Below are positions 49,592 to 60,635 of a stretch of DNA of 64,000 nucleotides, in pieces; position 1 is the first letter of the stretch, and each line of letters begins with the position of its first letter. The stretch is from the NCBI GenBank assembly GCA_029263455.1, contig JAJCXM010000026.1:1-64000 (forward strand), read 5' to 3'. This stretch comes from Holophagae bacterium (lineage in GTDB: Bacteria > Acidobacteriota > Holophagae > Acanthopleuribacterales > Acanthopleuribacteraceae). The notes under the pieces are model-generated. The model made no database searches. It was not told the DNA's origin and saw only the letters and a program-made list of their open reading frames with translations. Position numbers and translations under genes: made by a program.

Positions 49592-52093
49592 TTATTGATC
49601 CACGCTCTCGCGTAGGGAGCGGCGAGATACTCACCCCAGCATTGTTCGAGCGTATTGGAGTTTCAATCCACGCTCCCGCGTGGGGAGCGACCAAGACAAG
49701 GCCGTCGGCAAAGCTATCAGCTACATGTTTCAATCCACGCTCCCGCGTGGGGAGCGACCATCTGCTATTGTTTTTAATAATGGTTCATCTAGAGTTTCAA
49801 TCCACGCTCCCGCGTGGGGAGCGACATAGTTCTCGATGTCAACTCTCGCATAGATCCGTTGTTTCAATCCACGCTCCCGCGTGGGGAGCGACTCGAAGAT
49901 GCGCGGAAAGCCTGCAATGCCATAGATGTTTCAATCCACGCTCCCGCGTGGGGAGCGACCTTGAGCAAACTATGTTGCCTTTTCTGTTGGACAGTTTCAA
50001 TCCACGCTCCCGCGTGGGGAGCGACCCATGCTAGGCGCTTTCGTTTCGGCCGTTCCGGCTTGTTTCAATCCACGCTCCCGCGTGGGGAGCGACCGAGACC
50101 GCCAAAAAGGCGTTTTATCACCTGGCGCTGTTTCAATCCACGCTCCCGCGTGGGGAGCGACTCCGGGTTTATCGCGGTAAACCATTTGATCAAAACGTTT
50201 CAATCCACGCTCCCGCGTGGGGAGCGACTTGGGATGAGTGCGGCAAGCCGTCATGGATATATGTTTCAATCCACGCTCCCGCGTGGGGAGCGACTTAGGA
50301 GGTTCATTAGATAATCGGCATTGACGCGTTTCAATCCACGCTCCCGCGTGGGGAGCGACGTTCAAGTTCTGGAGCGCTTGTTATCAGAGGACCAAGTTTC
50401 AATCCACGCTCCCGCGTGGGGAGCGACATGCTTTGGTGTTTTGCTGTGTCTACTAAAAATGTTTCAATCCACGCTCCCGCGTGGGGAGCGACGACCAATG
50501 GCATTGACCTGACCTTAAACTTCGCGTGTTTCAATCCACGCTCCCGCGTGGGGAGCGACGTGGGTTTTTGGTAAATTTTGGTTTGTTTGGACCGAGTTTC
50601 AATCCACGCTCCCGCGTGGGGAGCGACAATAAAGCAGTGCAATAAAACCTATTGGGATTTAGGTTTCAATCCACGCTCCCGCGTGGGGAGCGACATATTA
50701 CTTTGGGTAAGGATGTCTTCAGGACGAAAGTTTCAATCCACGCTCCCGCGTGGGGAGCGACGCGATTATGCTTTGAATTTGGGCGATGATAGTGTGTTTC
50801 AATCCACGCTCCCGCGTGGGGAGCGACGCGATTATGCTTTGTATTTGAGCAATGATAGCGTGTTTCAATCCACGCTCCCGCGTGGGGAGCGACCCAGATC
50901 TGCCGTCACTGCCCGATGCCGATATAGTTTCAATCCACGCTCCCGCGTGGGGAGCGACGGCCAGCAAAAACAATAGAGCTTGACGCAAGCGATGTTTCAA
51001 TCCACGCTCCCGCGTGGGGAGCGACACGTTGATAGCCCATGCCGCGTCATCCTCAATTGTGTTTCAATCCACGCTCCCGCGTGGGGAGCGACAGATTGAT
51101 CGCCCATGCAGCATCGTCTTCAATCGTGTTTCAATCCACGCTCCCGCGTGGGGAGCGACATGACCTATATTATAGGTATAGAGAGACACGGAGGTTTCAA
51201 TCCACGCTCCCGCGTGGGGAGCGACGGACGCATTTTCACTATAAAATCTGATTTATGAGGTTTCAATCCACGCTCCCGCGTGGGGAGCGACTATGTTTGT
51301 TCGAACGAGTGAGACGGGCCCATAAAGTTTCAATCCACGCTCCCGCGTGGGGAGCGACGATTTTGTGGTGTGTTTGGTTGGGGTTAGAGATGTTTCAATC
51401 CACGCTCCCGCGTGGGGAGCGACTCGGTATTTCTCGGCAATTCGTTTCGCTCTCCTGGGTTTCAATCCACGCTCCCGCGTGGGGAGCGACCCGGGGCTAT
51501 ACGCGCCCGTATTGGTATCTAGTTTGTTTCAATCCACGCTCCCGCGTGGGGAGCGACGAATTGTCAGCCGCCATCACGCCCGTTGACCCGCCTGTTTCAA
51601 TCCACGCTCCCGCGTGGGGAGCGACTGTTGAGCGCCGTCACGGCTGCCGAGTCGATATCTGTTTCAATCCACGCTCCCGCGTGGGGAGCGACGTAAACGT
51701 CGCGCTCAATCGTGCGCGTTAACTGCGCGTTTCAATCCACGCTCCCGCGTGGGGAGCGACCACGATTGTAAGCGCGAGTGCGCCTACTTCGGCAGTTTCA
51801 ATCCACGCTCCCGCGTGGGGAGCGACGCTGACGCGTTGAATCCGCCACTCGAGCTATATCCGTTTCAATCCACGCTCCCGCGTGGGGAGCGACTAACGTG
51901 GCGTCGACTTCTAGCCCCGAGTTAACACCAGTTTCAATCCACGCTCCCGCGTGGGGAGCGACAATTTGCAACGGGCTCAATGTGGCGATTACACGGTTTC
52001 AATCCACGCTCCCGCGTGGGGAGCGACCACAGGCGTCCCGCCTGTGATGTCAAAGAGATCCGTTTCAATCCACGCTCCCGCGTGGGGAGCGAC
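49592..52093 (-). CRISPR. Type I-C CRISPR array: 38 repeats, 37 spacers
   Basis: The repeat is 32 bases; on the plus strand it starts GTTTCAATCCACGCTCCC and ends GTGGGGAGCGAC. 37 copies (49660 to 52093) are identical; the leftmost (49592-49623) has lost the GTTTCA end and carries three further changes, marking the old, leader-distal end. Spacers are 33-37 bases. Read on the minus strand the repeat ends ATTGAAAC, the normal type I-C 5' handle, with stem CGCTCCC/GGGAGCG. The array is therefore transcribed leftwards from the leader beside cas2. Spacers 50762-50795/50828-50861 and 51026-51060/51093-51127 are two homologous pairs. Confidence 0.98.
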
Positions 52094-52267
52094 TCCCTCA
52101 CTATAATTGATTAGATTCAAAACGGTTAGTCGCAATTACGCGCTAACCTCCCGAAAAAGGCAGAAAAGCCATTTCATAATTGACCAATATGTCATAACCA
52201 TTTTTATACCTAAGCACTTAACAAAACGCTAGCCTCCTGGCTATTGTCTGTGTACGTGTGGTTAGCG
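52094..52267 (-). promoter_or_regulatory. CRISPR leader
   Basis: 174 AT-rich bases between the cas2 stop and the newest repeat. On the minus strand it has a TATAAA box near the middle and TATAGT just before the first repeat. GCGCTAACC (52140-52148) and GGTTAGCGC (52260-52268) form a long-range nine-base inverted repeat that brackets most of the leader. A weak TAGCC/GGCTA hairpin lies just past cas2. Confidence 0.8.
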
Positions 52268-52561
52268 CTAAATAATTAGGGGATCGCGAAAGACATCATT
52301 TGCCAGCTTGGCTCCAAAGTGGTGAACCTTTTGGCGACCTTTCTTTCCAAGCATATAGAACCTTAAGCTATCCTCGTCTTGACTCATAATTTGGAGTAGT
52401 TCGTTCTTAAGAAAAGAGAATTGGGCTGGATTTACATCACATTCAAAGACAGAGTTCTGGACTCGAATCCCGTAATCGACACAAACTTTCGCTATCTTCC
52501 GAAGCCGACGCCGGCCATCTTTCGTAACGACACTTACATCATATGTCACCAAAACAAGCAC
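52268..52561 (-). CDS. cas2: CRISPR endonuclease Cas2
   Basis: 97 residues, the type I-C length. MLVLVTYDVS carries the conserved Asp8 at the end of strand 1; RRLRKIAKVCVDYGIRVQNSVFE, read as two adjoining pieces, is the characteristic helix and strand. Cas2 forms the central dimer of the Cas1-Cas2 spacer-integration complex. It follows cas1 by four bases and is the gene nearest the leader. Confidence 0.97.
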   Translation of the reverse strand: MLVLVTYDVSVVTKDGRRRLRKIAKVCVDYGIRVQNSVFECDVNPAQFSFLKNELLQIMSQDEDSLRFYMLGKKGRQKVHHFGAKLANDVFRDPLII

Positions 52562-52565
52562 TAAG

Positions 52566-53582
52566 TTACTTCACAAAGAACGGTGGGTACTGATTTAAGT
52601 CGCCTCGCAAATGCCGCGACAACAAAAGAGCTTGGCAATGCGGAATTAGGCCCACAGCGACCTTTTCGTTGAGATAGGGGTGTGTGACGATTTCTTGTTT
52701 CTTGGCTTGAAATGCCATTAGAACCGATCGACGTGAAGCCTCCTTCAAAATAACAGCGCCACTTGCCTGATAATCGAAATCCGAGGTCTTTAGTTCTCTT
52801 CGATTGATCAGGTTGAGTGCAAGACGATCACACCACCACGCCCTGAATTCCTCCAAGATATCTAAAGCTAAGCTAAGTCGTCCCGGCCTATCCGTGTGCA
52901 AAAATCCCACATAAGGGTCTAACCCCACACCCTGTAGTGAAGATGAAACTTCGTGAGTCACCAGTGTGTATAAAAACGAAAGCAATGCATTCACTGGATC
53001 TGTCGGTGGACGTCTAATTCGACCTTCGAAACGGAAGCCTTTGCCCTTAATAAGGTTATTAAATACGCCAAAATAGATTGCGGCCGCTTCACCTTCGATT
53101 CCTCGTAAAATGGCGACATCATCCGTTCGTTGACAACGCTGGAGACATATAGCTAGTCTTGAAATGGCATCGTCCAGCTCTTTGGTGCCGCCAGCATTAC
53201 GTATTTCGCGCTGTAATATTCGTCGACTATTGGAAACCTTAGCCGCGACAATGTTACGTGCAATAAGAATACTTTTTTGACCGTCGTCACTAATGCGGTA
53301 TTGCGCCCTCCGCAATAGGACATTGCCATTCTGTGCACCTTGTATTCGAGCTAAGAATTTACCGTACTCAGTGAAGAAGGCTAGACCAATACCCTTCTCG
53401 CCACAGTACCCCATCAGAAACGGAGAGACAGACACTTGACCAAAACACAAAATATTAGCAATCGCATGGGAAGGGAATTGCGCCAATTTTGCTTTAGCGC
53501 GCTTGATGACGATCGTTTCACGTTCCTTGTGGACATAACTTTCCTGCGTAGTTACATAAAGGCTGTTCTGTAGCTTCTTCAT
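52566..53582 (-). CDS. cas1: CRISPR integrase Cas1
   Basis: 338 residues. It integrates new spacers at the leader-repeat junction. Metal-binding residues: Glu163/Glu165 in RGIEGEAA, His229 in GFLHTDRPGR and Asp241/Glu244 in LALDILEEF. N-terminal beta domain 1-95, helical catalytic domain after that; full length. The start overlaps the cas4 stop by four bases. Confidence 0.98.
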   Translation of the reverse strand: MKKLQNSLYVTTQESYVHKERETIVIKRAKAKLAQFPSHAIANILCFGQVSVSPFLMGYCGEKGIGLAFFTEYGKFLARIQGAQNGNVLLRRAQYRISDDGQKSILIARNIVAAKVSNSRRILQREIRNAGGTKELDDAISRLAICLQRCQRTDDVAILRGIEGEAAAIYFGVFNNLIKGKGFRFEGRIRRPPTDPVNALLSFLYTLVTHEVSSSLQGVGLDPYVGFLHTDRPGRLSLALDILEEFRAWWCDRLALNLINRRELKTSDFDYQASGAVILKEASRRSVLMAFQAKKQEIVTHPYLNEKVAVGLIPHCQALLLSRHLRGDLNQYPPFFVK

Positions 53583-54193
53583 AGTCTATAGATGTTTCTA
53601 ACGTAGCGCTCCGAGAAGTCCTTTTGGAGGGCCTGGGGCTGACAGTCATCAATCAGTGAACATGATAAACACCGTTTGTCGTAAATCGGCGCAGGATTGA
53701 GTTGGAACGCAAACATCTCTTTCAATTGGCGAATGACATTCTTGGTTTCGTTTCGAAGATTTTCATCCAAATCAATCCAACTTCGCTTTCTTACTTGCCA
53801 ATACCAAATCGCGGCTCGGTTAATGTTGACACTCCGCATTTCCTCCAAGCACAATGCTTGCGCGCATAACTGAACTTTGTCGCAATTGTTCAATTTCGGC
53901 TTACCGCGCTTGTACTCGACTGGCATGAAGGTGTTCTCTATTGTGTCTATTTCCATTACATCAAGAACGCCATGAATACCCAATGCGTTGCTAACAACTG
54001 GGACAGAGCGTTCAACACGCAGGTTAGCTCTTTGCTCTGGCGTTCCTTCGTCTGTTCGTTGATGTAGGACCCTTCCCTGGGCAGTCCAATAGTTTTCAGT
54101 CCACAATCGTTCAATATGTATCAGTGCGCACTGGCGTGGACAGAATACGAAATGCTGAAGGGCGGAAATCGGGATTAACTTTTCTTCATCCAT
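53579..54193 (-). CDS. cas4: Cas4 RecB-like iron-sulfur nuclease
   Basis: 204 residues. Cas4 trims prespacers and helps choose the PAM. RecB nuclease motifs are in GVLDVMEI and MPVEYKRGKPK. Iron-sulfur cysteines: one near the N-terminus (FVFCPRQCA, Cys18 or Cys22) and three in RCLSCSLIDDC at the C-terminus. Complete, and located between cas7 and cas1 as usual for type I-C. Confidence 0.96.
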   Translation of the reverse strand: MDEEKLIPISALQHFVFCPRQCALIHIERLWTENYWTAQGRVLHQRTDEGTPEQRANLRVERSVPVVSNALGIHGVLDVMEIDTIENTFMPVEYKRGKPKLNNCDKVQLCAQALCLEEMRSVNINRAAIWYWQVRKRSWIDLDENLRNETKNVIRQLKEMFAFQLNPAPIYDKRCLSCSLIDDCQPQALQKDFSERYVRNIYRL

Positions 54194-54195
54194 TT

Positions 54196-55071
54196 TCAGA
54201 ATCCGTGTATCACCTCAGGTACAAGACCCTCAAGAGCGGATCCCAATGATTGCGTCAAGTGATCAGTATCTAATGGTTCCCCTTTGTTAATTAAATCACG
54301 AAGAGTCTTATGAACTCTAGATGATGAATACTTACCTGCTTTTGATGAATGCTGCCACCAAATTAGATTATCAATTGCCATTGAACCCTCAGGTCTCGCC
54401 GACGACGCATCGCCTTCAAACAATTTGAGCAGCACACTTTTAATTTTTATTGAATCTTCATTGCTGAACCCGGTCCTTTCCGCGAGCTGTGGCGACATGG
54501 CCCCATAGGCAACATAGGTGGCTTCATCAACGCGATGTTTCATACCCATAGTGTCTGAGCCTTTCTTTGAGCCATCGCCTTCGCCACTCACGCTTTTCGT
54601 TATTTGAAGGCTACTAATGCTGACCGGCTTGACGCTGAATGCGGAGTGAATCGTTACAGGTCCACGTATGGGAATTGATACCCCATCCTTGGATTCACTC
54701 TTAAAGGCGAATAACTGACCAAAGCTGCGAACGTCGATCCATTTGTCGCAAGCCAATCTTGCCGCTTCTTCCGATGAGGTCTTCTTTACATTCAGTGCAT
54801 CTTTGCCCAACCCATACTCACTAGACTCAGCCCTGTTTCTTAGGCTCGTCATGCCGTCCGTTTTCTTTTCATCTGATTGTACAAAGATGGATTCCCCAGC
54901 TTCTTGCAACCGGTCTCGAATTTTGCGTTTAAGACATACGTCTGAAATCTCGCCAAATCCGTCATAGTCAATTCTAGGCCTGTTCCCATTTAAAGGATCA
55001 CCATTTGGGTTAGCATTCTTAACCGAAAAAATAATTGCAAAATCAATCTTGTTCGATAGTGGTGCCATCAT
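54196..55071 (-). CDS. cas7: Cascade backbone protein Cas7c (Csd2)
   Basis: 291 residues of the Cas7 RAMP fold that coats the crRNA. The opening KIDFAIIFSVKNANPNGDP is the family signature, followed by GFGEISDVCLKRKIRDRL. GMKHRVDEATYVAYGAMSP is also typical. Full length. The start overlaps the cas8c/cas11c stop by four bases, so it is translated in step with them. Confidence 0.97.
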   Translation of the reverse strand: MMAPLSNKIDFAIIFSVKNANPNGDPLNGNRPRIDYDGFGEISDVCLKRKIRDRLQEAGESIFVQSDEKKTDGMTSLRNRAESSEYGLGKDALNVKKTSSEEAARLACDKWIDVRSFGQLFAFKSESKDGVSIPIRGPVTIHSAFSVKPVSISSLQITKSVSGEGDGSKKGSDTMGMKHRVDEATYVAYGAMSPQLAERTGFSNEDSIKIKSVLLKLFEGDASSARPEGSMAIDNLIWWQHSSKAGKYSSSRVHKTLRDLINKGEPLDTDHLTQSLGSALEGLVPEVIHGF

Positions 55072-55502
55072 TCATCTCCTTGTTCTTCTGCGTTTTTGTC
55101 TGCAATTGCCTTAACCTTCCATTCGCCTTTTTCCAATCTGTGATCCCGGAGCCATCTTCTCTGACAATGAAAACCGAGAAGATATTCGCCAGTTAGCCTT
55201 GTGTCCGATTTGAAATCCTCTTTTGAGAAAAGATCGCATATATCATCAAGAAGTTTCTTGTAAGCTGACTCCAAAGACGTCCGTTTTGTGCGTAGTCGCT
55301 GTTGATATGGGGCTAGTCCAGTTTCAATGGTTAGCCAGGTGGACGAAGGACGATCTGAGAATCGTTGCATTAAGCGGCTCGCGTGCGTGCTTCTTGCAGG
55401 TTCTTTTGCAATAATCATTGCCATTTCTTCGATTCGCTCTGCAACGGCCAGAAGTCGTCCATAGAGATAGTCTTTCGAGCTGTACTCTAAATCTAGTGAC
55501 AT
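55068..55502 (-). CDS. cas11c: Cas11c small subunit from an internal start within cas8c
   Basis: Within cas8c, in frame, the ATG at 55502 (residue 527) is preceded by AAAAGGAGGG with eight bases between, a stronger ribosome-binding site than many genes here have. The product would be 144 residues, MSLDLEYSSKDYLYGRLL onward, largely helical. Internal translation of cas11 within cas8c is established for type I-C systems; the location and length fit. The site is seen directly; production of the protein is inferred. Confidence 0.8.
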   Translation of the reverse strand: MSLDLEYSSKDYLYGRLLAVAERIEEMAMIIAKEPARSTHASRLMQRFSDRPSSTWLTIETGLAPYQQRLRTKRTSLESAYKKLLDDICDLFSKEDFKSDTRLTGEYLLGFHCQRRWLRDHRLEKGEWKVKAIADKNAEEQGDE

Positions 55503-57080
55503 GCTGTAATCCCTCCTTTTGCCTCTAATTGGGTGTCGTTTATGAAATCCGCGATAAAGTGCACATGCGACGCCAACATTGCGCTCCCACAACCAATGTT
55601 CACAACCGGCAGGACTACTAGCCCGCGTAACCGCCAGATTGACGACATCTAACGGAACTGTCCGTCCTTCAACGATACATGGCAAGAGACGCTCAATAAG
55701 ACTCTTTTTGAGTGTTGCGTTACTTTTGACAATATCCCCGTACGCAGCCTCGATAATATTCCTCGGAGATGGCGCACAAACGAACCAACGTACCACGGTC
55801 TTTGACTTCTTGCCGGTCGATTCAATTGGCATGCTTATGCGTTGAGGCCACGCAAATTCGGAGTGCCACTTTTCCACGACTTGCAAATAGTCGTTAGGCG
55901 AGAAATCACGGTAATAGGTAACCGCCATGCGACCCGGCGTTGCCGAATCCAACGACATTACAATAATCGAATCATTAGCCTCCAATTTAACTCGGTATCC
56001 TGAAATTGCTTTCTTCAGCGAAATCGCAAATCTTTGGCCCATGTCACGGCCATAGTCACTGTGGCATTCCTGTCCACCATCCGGCTCATAATGATCCGAG
56101 ACATCTTCAATATCGAATGAAAGCGTGTCAGCAATCGGTTCAGGGATCGGTTTACCGGAAACCGCCCAGGCAACAACGACTTGGTCTCCATTTCTGTAGC
56201 CCTGCCTTGAAATAAGCCATCTTAGGGCATTATGAGCCTTCTGCGTTGACTCATAACTAACACTGGCTACATCGTGACTTTTTACGAACTTGCCACGAAA
56301 TGTAAATCCGGATTTATCATTAGCCGATAACAGTTTGGCCTTGTCGCCTGTATGACGCAATTTTGCAGGGTGATTGACCGCAACTTGGGTGTAGTGACCC
56401 GACACGTAACATAGCGACTCGCCCCTTGATGACTGAGCATCAAAGTCTATCCAACTTTGCTGAAGACTCTTATCCAGCCAAGTCTCCGATTCGCTGTCTC
56501 CGACTATTTCAACTGTCCAACACACAAGCGCATTTCCTTGCTTGAACAGGCGTTTCTCTTTCGGCAACACCTTAAACAGCAAAGGCAGGGGATGGCTCTC
56601 TGTGTCTTCATATGGCCACGACGTCAACAACGCTCCATTATTGTCCAAAAAACAGACTTCTGAATTTACTAAGTCGCGGATCACCGTTTCTTTGGTTACA
56701 TAACTAAGGACAGCTTTGGCTTTTGGGTGACTGTATTTTGAAGCACACCATGACTCCAGTAATTCCTTGTAGTTCTTATAAAATGATGGTTTCAATCCTC
56801 CATGTTTTCGATAGTCAGCTGCTACATATTGAAGCTTGTCCGCTAACGGGTGAGGCGGCGGAATTTTGCCGGCTCTTCCTGCAGATCCTTCGGTGGCTGG
56901 CAAGATTACTTTAATTTTTTCTAATGCTTTTGCTTTTATGAAGTTCCCCGTGCCATCGATCACTATATTGATGTAGGCGGATTGTAAAGTATGACTAATA
57001 GGCATGGGTTTCAGCTCGTCCCCAATATCCAAATTCATACCCTGTTCATAAGTCTCATGGAGTTTCGCCATCCAACTCAT
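55068..57080 (-). CDS. cas8c: Type I-C large subunit Cas8c (Csd1)
   Basis: 670 residues. Recognises the PAM and opens target DNA within Cascade. Family features include HPLADKLQYV near residue 76, FRGKFVKSHDVASVSYESTQKAHNAL read in two parts, VVAWAVSGKPIPEP, and a C-terminal helical region from about residue 527 that matches the small-subunit fold (DYLYGRLLAVAERIEE). The start overlaps the cas5c stop by four bases. The C-terminal part also appears to be made separately as Cas11c from an internal start. Confidence 0.95.
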   Translation of the reverse strand: MSWMAKLHETYEQGMNLDIGDELKPMPISHTLQSAYINIVIDGTGNFIKAKALEKIKVILPATEGSAGRAGKIPPPHPLADKLQYVAADYRKHGGLKPSFYKNYKELLESWCASKYSHPKAKAVLSYVTKETVIRDLVNSEVCFLDNNGALLTSWPYEDTESHPLPLLFKVLPKEKRLFKQGNALVCWTVEIVGDSESETWLDKSLQQSWIDFDAQSSRGESLCYVSGHYTQVAVNHPAKLRHTGDKAKLLSANDKSGFTFRGKFVKSHDVASVSYESTQKAHNALRWLISRQGYRNGDQVVVAWAVSGKPIPEPIADTLSFDIEDVSDHYEPDGGQECHSDYGRDMGQRFAISLKKAISGYRVKLEANDSIIVMSLDSATPGRMAVTYYRDFSPNDYLQVVEKWHSEFAWPQRISMPIESTGKKSKTVVRWFVCAPSPRNIIEAAYGDIVKSNATLKKSLIERLLPCIVEGRTVPLDVVNLAVTRASSPAGCEHWLWERNVGVACALYRGFHKRHPIRGKRRDYSMSLDLEYSSKDYLYGRLLAVAERIEEMAMIIAKEPARSTHASRLMQRFSDRPSSTWLTIETGLAPYQQRLRTKRTSLESAYKKLLDDICDLFSKEDFKSDTRLTGEYLLGFHCQRRWLRDHRLEKGEWKVKAIADKNAEEQGDE

Positions 57081-57781
57081 ATGCGACCATCCTCAAGCTC
57101 AACGCCAAGTATATTTTCGTTCATTTCGAACGATTTCGGCTTCATTTTGCGAACGAATCGACGAATCTGACAATCTTCTGGTCGCGGAAATGATAAGACG
57201 CCGTGCTCCATCCTTGGCTGCCAGAAACGTGTTTGAAGCTCGTTCTTTCCCGTTTCGTCAGGATAATCAAAGCCATGAAACATCAAGCCAAAACCAAGCT
57301 CGGGGATATCGTCGTATGCACCTGATCCCGAGCCAAATTCACAGGGTTCAACATATCCCTGACAGTCCCTTACGCCCAAAAAAATGTCTTGCCTGCCCCC
57401 TTTTTCAAGCATGCGATTTAGGATTGAAAAGTGTTTACCGTCAATGCGGTCCTTCTCTAGCTCGGGCCTATTCAAATTCCACTCAAAGTGTGCTTTTACC
57501 TGGTACGCGACATCATGAAGAAAGGTGTAAATGGCTAGACTGTTCCCCCCTCCCCAGTTGAGTGGTTTTGTTCCTTTAGTTTGGGTGCGAAACGCATTAA
57601 GCACGCGTACTTGATCCACGTACCAGACCAAAGTCGGTTTCCAGTATATTGATTTCAGCACACCTTTAATTGCTTCATATGTGGGTAGATGATACGAACA
57701 TTTTTCTCCACCCACCTTTGTTATAGGGTCGGTGAATAAGGCGTAACGGCCCCAAAGTCTGAAAGTAATCTCATTACGCAT
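57077..57781 (-). CDS. cas5: crRNA-processing endoribonuclease Cas5c (Cas5d)
   Basis: 234 residues. In type I-C, Cas5 replaces Cas6 and cuts the repeat RNA, leaving an 11-nucleotide 5' handle. Tyr46 (KSIYWKP) and Lys116-His117 (DGKHFSI) stand at the same numbering as the catalytic Tyr-Lys-His of the Bacillus halodurans enzyme. NRMLEKGGRQDIFLGVRDCQ and GYVEPCEFGSG are family signatures. The gene starts 10 bases downstream of cas3. Confidence 0.96.
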   Translation of the reverse strand: MRNEITFRLWGRYALFTDPITKVGGEKCSYHLPTYEAIKGVLKSIYWKPTLVWYVDQVRVLNAFRTQTKGTKPLNWGGGNSLAIYTFLHDVAYQVKAHFEWNLNRPELEKDRIDGKHFSILNRMLEKGGRQDIFLGVRDCQGYVEPCEFGSGSGAYDDIPELGFGLMFHGFDYPDETGKNELQTRFWQPRMEHGVLSFPRPEDCQIRRFVRKMKPKSFEMNENILGVELEDGRI

Positions 57782-57791
57782 TTATCGCCCC

Positions 57792-60260
57792 CTAAACTCC
57801 CATAAATTGTTGCCCCTGAACGGGTTCCACGTTAATCCCAAATGCTTCGCTGTAGAATTCATTTTTCAAATAGAAGATGCCGTGGCCCGGCTGGGTTTCT
57901 TCAACTGCTTGATTCTTGATCAGTTGCGTCCACATGTTCGGGAAAACATTTACACTGAATTGTTGTGCTTCACGTAAGAGTTGGTAGTACCGCCGCACGT
58001 CAAACTCTTTAGCCGCCGAACACAAATCCGTTACAAGTTGATAGCCTTCTCCATGTTGAACGATAACGGATTGAGTCGGTGCATCTATGGCTTTGAATTG
58101 TTTTCCTGCTTCCATAAATGACTGGCTCAACAATCCGCCACCAGCATTAGGCGAAACTCTGCGCGGGCAAAGTGGATTATCACTCAATAAGTTGAGCAAA
58201 CTATCGTCACGGCCGATATCTTTGACTCCAAGTTCGTAGACCATGGCATCTGCACGTTGGTAAAAATAGTATTGAAAGTACCTTTCCATAGCGCTGGGAG
58301 CCAGCAAGTTTTCATGATCTTCGCGCATGACACGCTCAGCGATTTCTTTGCCTACCTTGATGGCCGGCAGCATACCCACGGATTCCTTGTCGGGATTTAA
58401 GACGTAGACATTTCCCTTCACCTTGTTACCACTGGCATCTTTGAGCATGCCATTGCGATTACAGCGTCCAGCAGCCTGTGCAATCGAATCTAGACCAGCT
58501 AGAAAGCGAATCACGGTCGCAAAATCCACATCCACTCCAGCCTCTATCAATTGTGTGCTAATGCAAAGAACAGGCGCGCCTGACTTCAATCGTTCCTTAA
58601 TTTCATTCAGCATTGACTTACGGTGAGCGGGGTATTGATAGGTACTCAAATGAAATAGATCATCTTGACTCACTCTACCCTCACACTCTTGAAAAAGTGA
58701 CTTTGCCCACGCCTTTGTATTGACGATAACAAGACAGCTCCCATAAGCACGAAATTCATCCATTGCAAGCTGAGTAATTTCGCCTGAATTCCAACCGCCA
58801 ATCTTGCACTTGTTATGAATTTTCACTCTTTGAAGGTCGACAAAATGTCTTTCAATGTCGCCAGCCAACTCGTTTCCATTTGGAACAATGAGCTGACCGT
58901 ACTGAGGCGACTTTAGATTCGTCAACAAGGGTTGTGTTGCCGTGCATAGCACAACCGTCGATCGACAATGATTAGTCAAGAAATTGATGGCATTGCAGAA
59001 GATATGAACACAATTTACTGGAAGGGTTTGAATCTCGTCAAAGATTAAGACGCTTTTGGCAAGATGGTGTAAGCGGCGAACGCTTCGGGTTCCGCCACCA
59101 AAAAATGCCTCCAATAATTGAAACATCGTCGTCAAGACGATTGGCGCATCCCAATTCTCTGAAACTAACTTGCTTTGCCATGTTTGTTGATCAGGTTCTA
59201 AATTGGAATGATGTTCTAATACCCACTTCGCTGTGTCATCGTCACGTTCAACAACATCGCGAATTGCCTTAGCGTTTTGATCAATAATTGATGTGTACGG
59301 AATCACGAAGAAGATATGTTCTAAATTGAACTTCCGAGCGTGGTGAAGTGCAAAACGCAAACTGGCGTAAGTTTTGCCGCCACCAGTTGGAACTGTTAGT
59401 GTAAAAATCCCTTGCTGCGTCTCGGCTTTTGACCTGCAATTATTTGATATCTCACCTCTCAGATCGTCGACGTAGTTTTTCGGCACTAAGGATTTCAAGT
59501 GCTCCTCAATGCGTGCAACAGCCACATCCCAGGTGGGCGGGCCGACCCTAATGATCCTTGCTACTTTTCTCGATTCGTCTTCGAACTCGGCACTATTTAG
59601 TCGATCCGCATCAATAAGGCAGCTAAATAGGAAGCGTAACAAGAAGCCACGCTCGAAAAGAGCTATCTTGCGCCCCAATGATCCTGACCGTGCTTCAATC
59701 TTACCTATCGCCTCTATTAACTCGCCCACCAAAGGGCGATCTAGCAGTTGGTTTGCTCGGTCCAGGATTTGTTTGTCACTAGCTTGGCAAGATTCGTCCA
59801 AGTGCGCCTTTTCTTCTGCCTTTTTCATCCGTCTTTCAAAAACATTCTCGCCATCGAGATTAAGGCTATCTATCAAACCGCTGTGGTGTGACGCAATGGC
59901 AATAGCTAGTATTTGTCCGCTAAGTCGGCCCTGTCCTTTTGCGCCTATCGTAGACAACTTCTTCCAAATATATTGGGCGCCAGCACTTGAATGGTCAATT
60001 TTCCCTTTCAGAGATTTGAAGTCGACGTAATCGTCCATGTCTTGATTGATGAGTCCAGTAGCCGACTTAATATAGGCTTGGAACGCTTGACTATACTTAC
60101 CGAAGTCGTGAAGCAGGCCAATAATTTCGCCAGCCATTGGGCAACCGATTTTATCAGCAAACGTCTTTGACAATTCTGCGACTTCGGAGAGATGGGATAA
60201 CAGGCTCTGTTCTTCCCTGTCGAACTTTCTCACATGCGCTAAGAATTCATTATTACCCAT
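57792..60260 (-). CDS. cas3: CRISPR helicase-nuclease Cas3
   Basis: 822 residues from the ATG at 60260; an in-frame TTG at 60281 is possible and neither has a strong ribosome-binding site. The N-terminal HD nuclease has His23 (LSHLSEVAEL) and His51-Asp52 (LLHDFGKYSQAF). The SF2 helicase has Walker A VPTGGGKTYAS, motif II LIFDEIQTLP (DEIQ), VLCTATQP, STQLIEAGVDVDF and QAAGRCNRNG. Recruited by Cascade to degrade target DNA. First gene of the operon. Confidence 0.96.
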   Translation of the reverse strand: MGNNEFLAHVRKFDREEQSLLSHLSEVAELSKTFADKIGCPMAGEIIGLLHDFGKYSQAFQAYIKSATGLINQDMDDYVDFKSLKGKIDHSSAGAQYIWKKLSTIGAKGQGRLSGQILAIAIASHHSGLIDSLNLDGENVFERRMKKAEEKAHLDESCQASDKQILDRANQLLDRPLVGELIEAIGKIEARSGSLGRKIALFERGFLLRFLFSCLIDADRLNSAEFEDESRKVARIIRVGPPTWDVAVARIEEHLKSLVPKNYVDDLRGEISNNCRSKAETQQGIFTLTVPTGGGKTYASLRFALHHARKFNLEHIFFVIPYTSIIDQNAKAIRDVVERDDDTAKWVLEHHSNLEPDQQTWQSKLVSENWDAPIVLTTMFQLLEAFFGGGTRSVRRLHHLAKSVLIFDEIQTLPVNCVHIFCNAINFLTNHCRSTVVLCTATQPLLTNLKSPQYGQLIVPNGNELAGDIERHFVDLQRVKIHNKCKIGGWNSGEITQLAMDEFRAYGSCLVIVNTKAWAKSLFQECEGRVSQDDLFHLSTYQYPAHRKSMLNEIKERLKSGAPVLCISTQLIEAGVDVDFATVIRFLAGLDSIAQAAGRCNRNGMLKDASGNKVKGNVYVLNPDKESVGMLPAIKVGKEIAERVMREDHENLLAPSAMERYFQYYFYQRADAMVYELGVKDIGRDDSLLNLLSDNPLCPRRVSPNAGGGLLSQSFMEAGKQFKAIDAPTQSVIVQHGEGYQLVTDLCSAAKEFDVRRYYQLLREAQQFSVNVFPNMWTQLIKNQAVEETQPGHGIFYLKNEFYSEAFGINVEPVQGQQFMGV

Positions 60261-60635
60261 GGCGTGAAAACCCGTGTTCAATATAAAAACAATAGTCTTA
60301 TGAAATCGGAATGTCTACGTGAAACTTGAGAATTTTGACTCTTTTACATTCGGATGTACGCAACTATAAATAGGGAATCAGCAACGACGGCAATTTGAGT
60401 ACCCAACGATACCTGAAATCGCTGCGTTTTTCCTCTCCCTCAGCGTCCGCTCTACCCGTCTAGTTGTTGTTTGGCACTCTGGAGAAACGACGCACATTCG
60501 CCTTTTGGCGGTTTTTTTGATTTTTGAAAGCGGGCCATCGGTGATAAGAATAGCTTAGGCTCAAGCATTCACCATTAAGAATGGCGAAGAGTTAGTTACA
60601 CCAAATAAATAAGTACCAACCCATAAGGATATACA
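60261..60635. other. Regulatory interval between cas3 and mutS2
   Basis: 375 bases between divergent starts. It holds an imperfect palindrome TACATTCGGATGTA (60345-60358, 12 of 14 bases symmetrical) that may be an operator for the cas promoter. It also holds a short plus-strand terminator-like element: CGCC, TTTT, GGCG at 60499-60510 followed by G and seven T residues. I could not fix either promoter with confidence. Confidence 0.45.

Follow-up and report, generated by a model that had tools for sequence, protein, structure and literature searches.

Spacer pairs in which the same region of an invader was captured twice are already known in type I-C systems from Legionella (PMC5071653). In a Legionella type I-C priming experiment, one protospacer with the PAM GAA was acquired independently two times, and two natural pairs, each made up of an older mismatched and a newer perfectly matching spacer, target overlapping regions of LME-1 and were interpreted as the result of primed acquisition following escape (PMC5071653). 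Homologous spacers acquired independently from one viral locus have been described in Sulfolobales (PMC6858448). For type I-F, spacer length variation has been located at the PAM-distal cut (PMC5059440).

The window (the whole 64,000 nt stretch of Holophagae bacterium DNA that was analyzed) adds a clear example to the Legionella cases. Like L. pneumophila Toronto-2005, it is of type I-C and holds an older and a newer spacer on one region of an evolving invader; in Toronto-2005 the older spacer of each of the two pairs mismatches that invader (PMC5071653). In Toronto-2005, however, the invader is known, the targets overlap, and it is in PAM or seed match that the older spacers differ, whereas in the window the spacer ends are in exact register, synonymous changes bring the divergence to as much as 23%, and the spacers are all that is known of the invader. 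The Sulfolobales spacers are likewise homologous and independently acquired from one viral locus, but they came through different adaptation modules into arrays of different repeat type, carry at most 2 mismatches, and are not neighbors within an array (PMC6858448). Within the open-licence literature, no paper using a synonymous signature of spacer pairs was found.

The array is part of a complete type I-C locus (Table 1). The minus-strand operon at 52268-60281 reads cas3-cas5c-cas8c-cas7-cas4-cas1-cas2; Cas1c, Csd2, Csd1 and Cas5c scored above the cut-off of type I-C models, and Cas2, Cas4 and Cas3 are also there. The repeats (32 nt, of the GTTTCAATCCACGC...GCGAC kind) and the spacers (33-37 nt) are those of a type I-C array. 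As the probable leader adjoins cas2 and the degenerate repeat is the old end, spacer A2 would have been acquired later than A1 and B2 later than B1, an order that assumes standard leader-side insertion. Within the newest spacer (52028-52061) there is a perfect inverted repeat, CACAGGCG...CGCCTGTG, which could allow the crRNA of this spacer to fold back on itself. Spacers 50560-50595 and 51359-51391 show a strong purine/pyrimidine strand asymmetry and are G/T-rich on the plus strand.

Table 1. Coordinates of the type I-C locus and of the two spacer pairs in the window.
Feature	Coordinates	Strand	Detail
Degenerate terminal repeat	49592..49623	-	25/32; old (trailer) end of the array
CRISPR array	49660..52093	-	37 identical 32-nt repeats and 36 spacers; minus-strand reading
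Spacer B1 (older)	50762..50795	-	TIIAQIQSII
Spacer B2 (newer)	50828..50861	-	AIIAQIQSII
Spacer A1 (older)	51026..51060	-	TIEDDAAWAIN; crRNA sense ACAATTGAGGATGACGCGGCATGGGCTATCAACGT
Spacer A2 (newer)	51093..51127	-	TIEDDAAWAIN; crRNA sense ACGATTGAAGACGATGCTGCATGGGCGATCAATCT
Probable leader region	52094..52267	-	between cas2 and the first repeat, assigned by position
cas2	52268..52561	-	
cas1, type I-C	52566..53582	-	TIGR03640
cas4	53579..54193	-	
cas7/csd2, type I-C	54196..55071	-	TIGR02589
cas8c/csd1	55068..57080	-	TIGR01863
cas5c	57077..57781	-	TIGR01876
cas3 helicase-nuclease	57792..60281	-	

Spacers A1 and A2 (pair A) are identical at 27 of 35 nt and differ, counted on the plus strand, at positions 2, 3, 9, 18, 21, 24, 27 and 33; the coordinates, the lengths and these eight positions had been given exactly in the preliminary description. 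When all spacers were compared with all others within 90 arrays (1804 spacers), unrelated pairs reached at most 67% identity, and from there to 77% was a gap without any pair. A1 and A2 are truly related, as their identity lies beyond this gap. Seven of their eight differences share a codon phase. When a duplicated spacer was left to drift in simulations, zero amino-acid change in any of the six frames arose with P about 1-3e-4.

With a spacer length of 35 nt, the third codon positions of plus frame 0 and minus frame 0 coincide, so that codon phase alone does not decide the strand of pair A. Read on the minus strand, both spacers encode TIEDDAAWAIN, with no residue differing over 11 full codons; the 7 changed codons are all synonymous, and the eighth difference falls in the last codon, which is incomplete. 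All four two-fold degenerate sites have changed in this reading, each by a transition, as is required there. On the plus strand, LIAHAASSSI is present in both spacers, but only 10 of the 11 residues are identical, and one codon changes from Thr to Arg. The minus (crRNA-sense) reading was preferred because of its 11/11 residues and the transitions at the two-fold sites; TIEDDAAWAIN is thus probably the coding-strand reading and LIAHAASSSI its antisense. The strand and the LIAHAASSSI peptide given in the preliminary description were probably wrong.

Because the two spacers share their length and both ends and differ almost only synonymously, A1 and A2 diverged under protein-level selection outside the array. 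Pair A thus combines homology in register with coding-constrained divergence, the pattern of recapture; substitutions falling regardless of codon phase, the pattern of drift, were not seen.

A second neighboring pair (pair B; 50762-50795 and 50828-50861), on which the preliminary description was silent, lies four spacers from pair A toward the old side. B1 and B2 (34 nt) are identical at 30 of 34 nt; three of the four differences are synonymous, and one residue differs on the minus strand. Taken alone, pair B was not significant against drift (P 0.18-0.36).

The repeat kind of the window array is also present at 120 other genome loci. Scanning for the type I-C repeat gave these 120 loci, with 88 usable arrays from other genomes, and these arrays, the window and one family relative formed the survey set of 90 arrays and 1804 spacers. 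Spacers of the window had no match among those of the 89 other arrays. Related, non-identical spacer pairs recur among the 88 arrays of other genomes. Related type I-C sets of this sort include spacers 18, 20 and 34 of L055, spacers 9 and 10 of L129, and spacers 33, 62 and 64 of L101, and in some of these sets the ends are slipped by 1 nt.

In the 90 arrays, 8 pairs had an identical core and unequal ends; the PAM-side end was exactly common in 7 of the 8, and the far end varied by 1-3 nt. A common PAM-side end with a variable far end is the pattern expected of independent PAM-anchored captures of one protospacer, and the sharing of the PAM-side end agrees with the strand assignment. Diverged pairs, defined by three or more mismatches, numbered 9, of which 6 lay within two array positions (permutation P 0.0005). 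Without the window, 4 of 7 lay within two positions (P 0.012), and strict adjacency was not significant (P 0.11). Tandem spacer duplicates identical at both ends were found as 13 pairs, many of them adjacent. The survey suggests that recapture of the same site is regular in type I-C arrays.

One array of the survey (L138) provides a sister case with real protospacers. Its spacers 4 and 6 (33 nt) carry 7 differences, all synonymous (GKRKIRYYLCG), for which simulated drift gave P about 1e-4 to 5e-4. As in pair A, the two spacers have common ends, differ only synonymously and are near neighbors in the array; unlike the window pairs, they have public microvirus protospacers with a readable PAM position, and the strand that codes is not the crRNA-sense strand but its complement. 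The matches, 32/33 and 30/33, are in the replication gene VP4 of two fecal microviruses, from fox and pig, and the best matches of the two spacers lie in two different microvirus genomes. The PAM edge carries the three bases GAG and GAA, which encode the conserved Glu in the CGEYG motif. Homologous protospacers with the PAM at a common edge were thus found in different genomes, which for L138 directly supports capture of diverged homologous genes in the same register, and a conserved residue can hold a PAM site in place. The L138 array also contains a block duplication, in which spacers 0-1 recur as 3-4.

Searches of IMG/VR, of phages and plasmids, and of 93 genomes of the class yielded no protospacer for pair A or B, nor for any other spacer of the array. 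Degenerate scans of IMG/VR with the pair A and pair B peptides gave no true protospacer, and BLASTN gave nothing usable with 36 joined spacers against phages or 26 joined spacers against plasmids. The search with the LIAHAASSSI peptide covered 21 related genomes only. A shorter scan with EDDAAW returned 56 loci, mostly in unrelated proteins or non-coding frames, and the sole EDDAAWAI match (L013) was not convincing. A self-derived origin was rejected, as the own genome and 92 genomes of the class returned nothing but the spacers and a cellular protein that is unrelated to them. For pair B, tape-measure proteins (L215/L218) were weak candidates that match IAQIQSIIA only.

The best in-frame homologue of pair A came from uncultured phages (L160, L171). 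This 629-aa protein has relatives in phages of Flavobacterium, Microcystis and Rhodothermus. It reads TIEDDAAWEIN, which is 10 of 11 residues and 28 of 35 nt to A2. T7-like DNA polymerases carry RLEHDAAWACA in the frame of pair A, a weaker match than that of L160/L171. It is doubtful that the target of pair A was either a large-myophage structural protein of the L160 family or, failing that, a T7-like DNA polymerase. The tail-like L160 family was downgraded, as the residue after Trp is always Glu or Asp in these relatives and Ala in the spacers; the polymerases, first favored on weak BLASTN matches, were downgraded for an invariant His where the spacers have Asp. Both matches are short and were picked after the search, and could be due to chance.

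These pairs very probably arose when a conserved coding site was captured independently, with PAM anchoring, from phages that had diverged. The preliminary description had likewise taken pair A for two in-register captures from homologous coding sequences that had diverged, and not for a drifted duplicate; the simulations support this for pair A, and the L138 spacers, with their like pattern, map to real homologous virus genes. The anchor of each capture would be a type I-C PAM, which reads TTC in crRNA sense and GAA on the opposite strand; for pair A the TTC would be an in-frame Phe codon of the target gene. As such a PAM codon is fixed by the amino-acid position, one protospacer would stay available across diverged relatives, and preferred sites could be captured from them again. 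The later capture (A2, B2) would restore a full match to a relative, against which the older crRNA would have 8 or 4 mismatches. That the captures stand near one another in array order suggests that related phages infected at short intervals, and the older, mismatched spacer may have aided recapture through priming. For pair A, we infer the PAM anchoring, the difference between the invaders and the order in time.

Of the other explanations, the one that survives best makes priming the cause, in that the mismatched older crRNA guides Cascade and the protospacer of the escape variant is preferentially retaken and placed beside the old spacer. This has a lesser but real chance of being right. Diverged pairs are closely spaced in arrays, both window pairs have a mismatch at crRNA seed position 3, type I-C priming is strong, and the natural Legionella pairs were so read (PMC5071653). 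Identical protospacers were retaken too, however (the 8 pairs with identical cores and unequal ends), so neither divergence nor priming by a mismatched spacer is necessary; infections clustered in time account equally well for the spacing, the seed mismatches fit priming but do not tell it from repeated infection, and nothing pointed to a preference for the priming site itself. A stronger form, in which type I-C memory is updated in place, with an imperfect crRNA steering the retaking of the exact protospacer and a corrected copy systematically following the outdated spacer, we consider unlikely. If it were true, its footprints would be both pairs of the window and those other diverged pairs whose members stand no more than two positions apart.

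New spacers often arrive in bursts from one invader, and the members of each pair are adjacent, as they would be if a single invader had carried two paralogous gene copies and both had been taken in one infection. This is very unlikely, since it would require two paralogues for each of two unrelated peptides, and the L138 spacers best match two different microvirus genomes. Duplication of a spacer within the array, followed by drift of the copies through mutation, is the least probable of all: exact tandem duplicates are common in the survey and the 4 differences of pair B are by themselves compatible with drift, but in pair A 7 of the 8 differences share a codon phase and none of the 11 codons changes its residue, and the array is not gathering mutations at 23%, as all 37 repeats are identical.

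A synonymous signature tells true recapture from spacer duplication, a separation that most spacer surveys do not make. Spacer pairs that differ only synonymously indicate that diverged relatives attacked one host lineage, and they reveal the reading frame and a conserved peptide stretch of invaders without sequenced genomes. In the window, pair A probably exposes the reading frame of a virus gene that nobody has sequenced yet.
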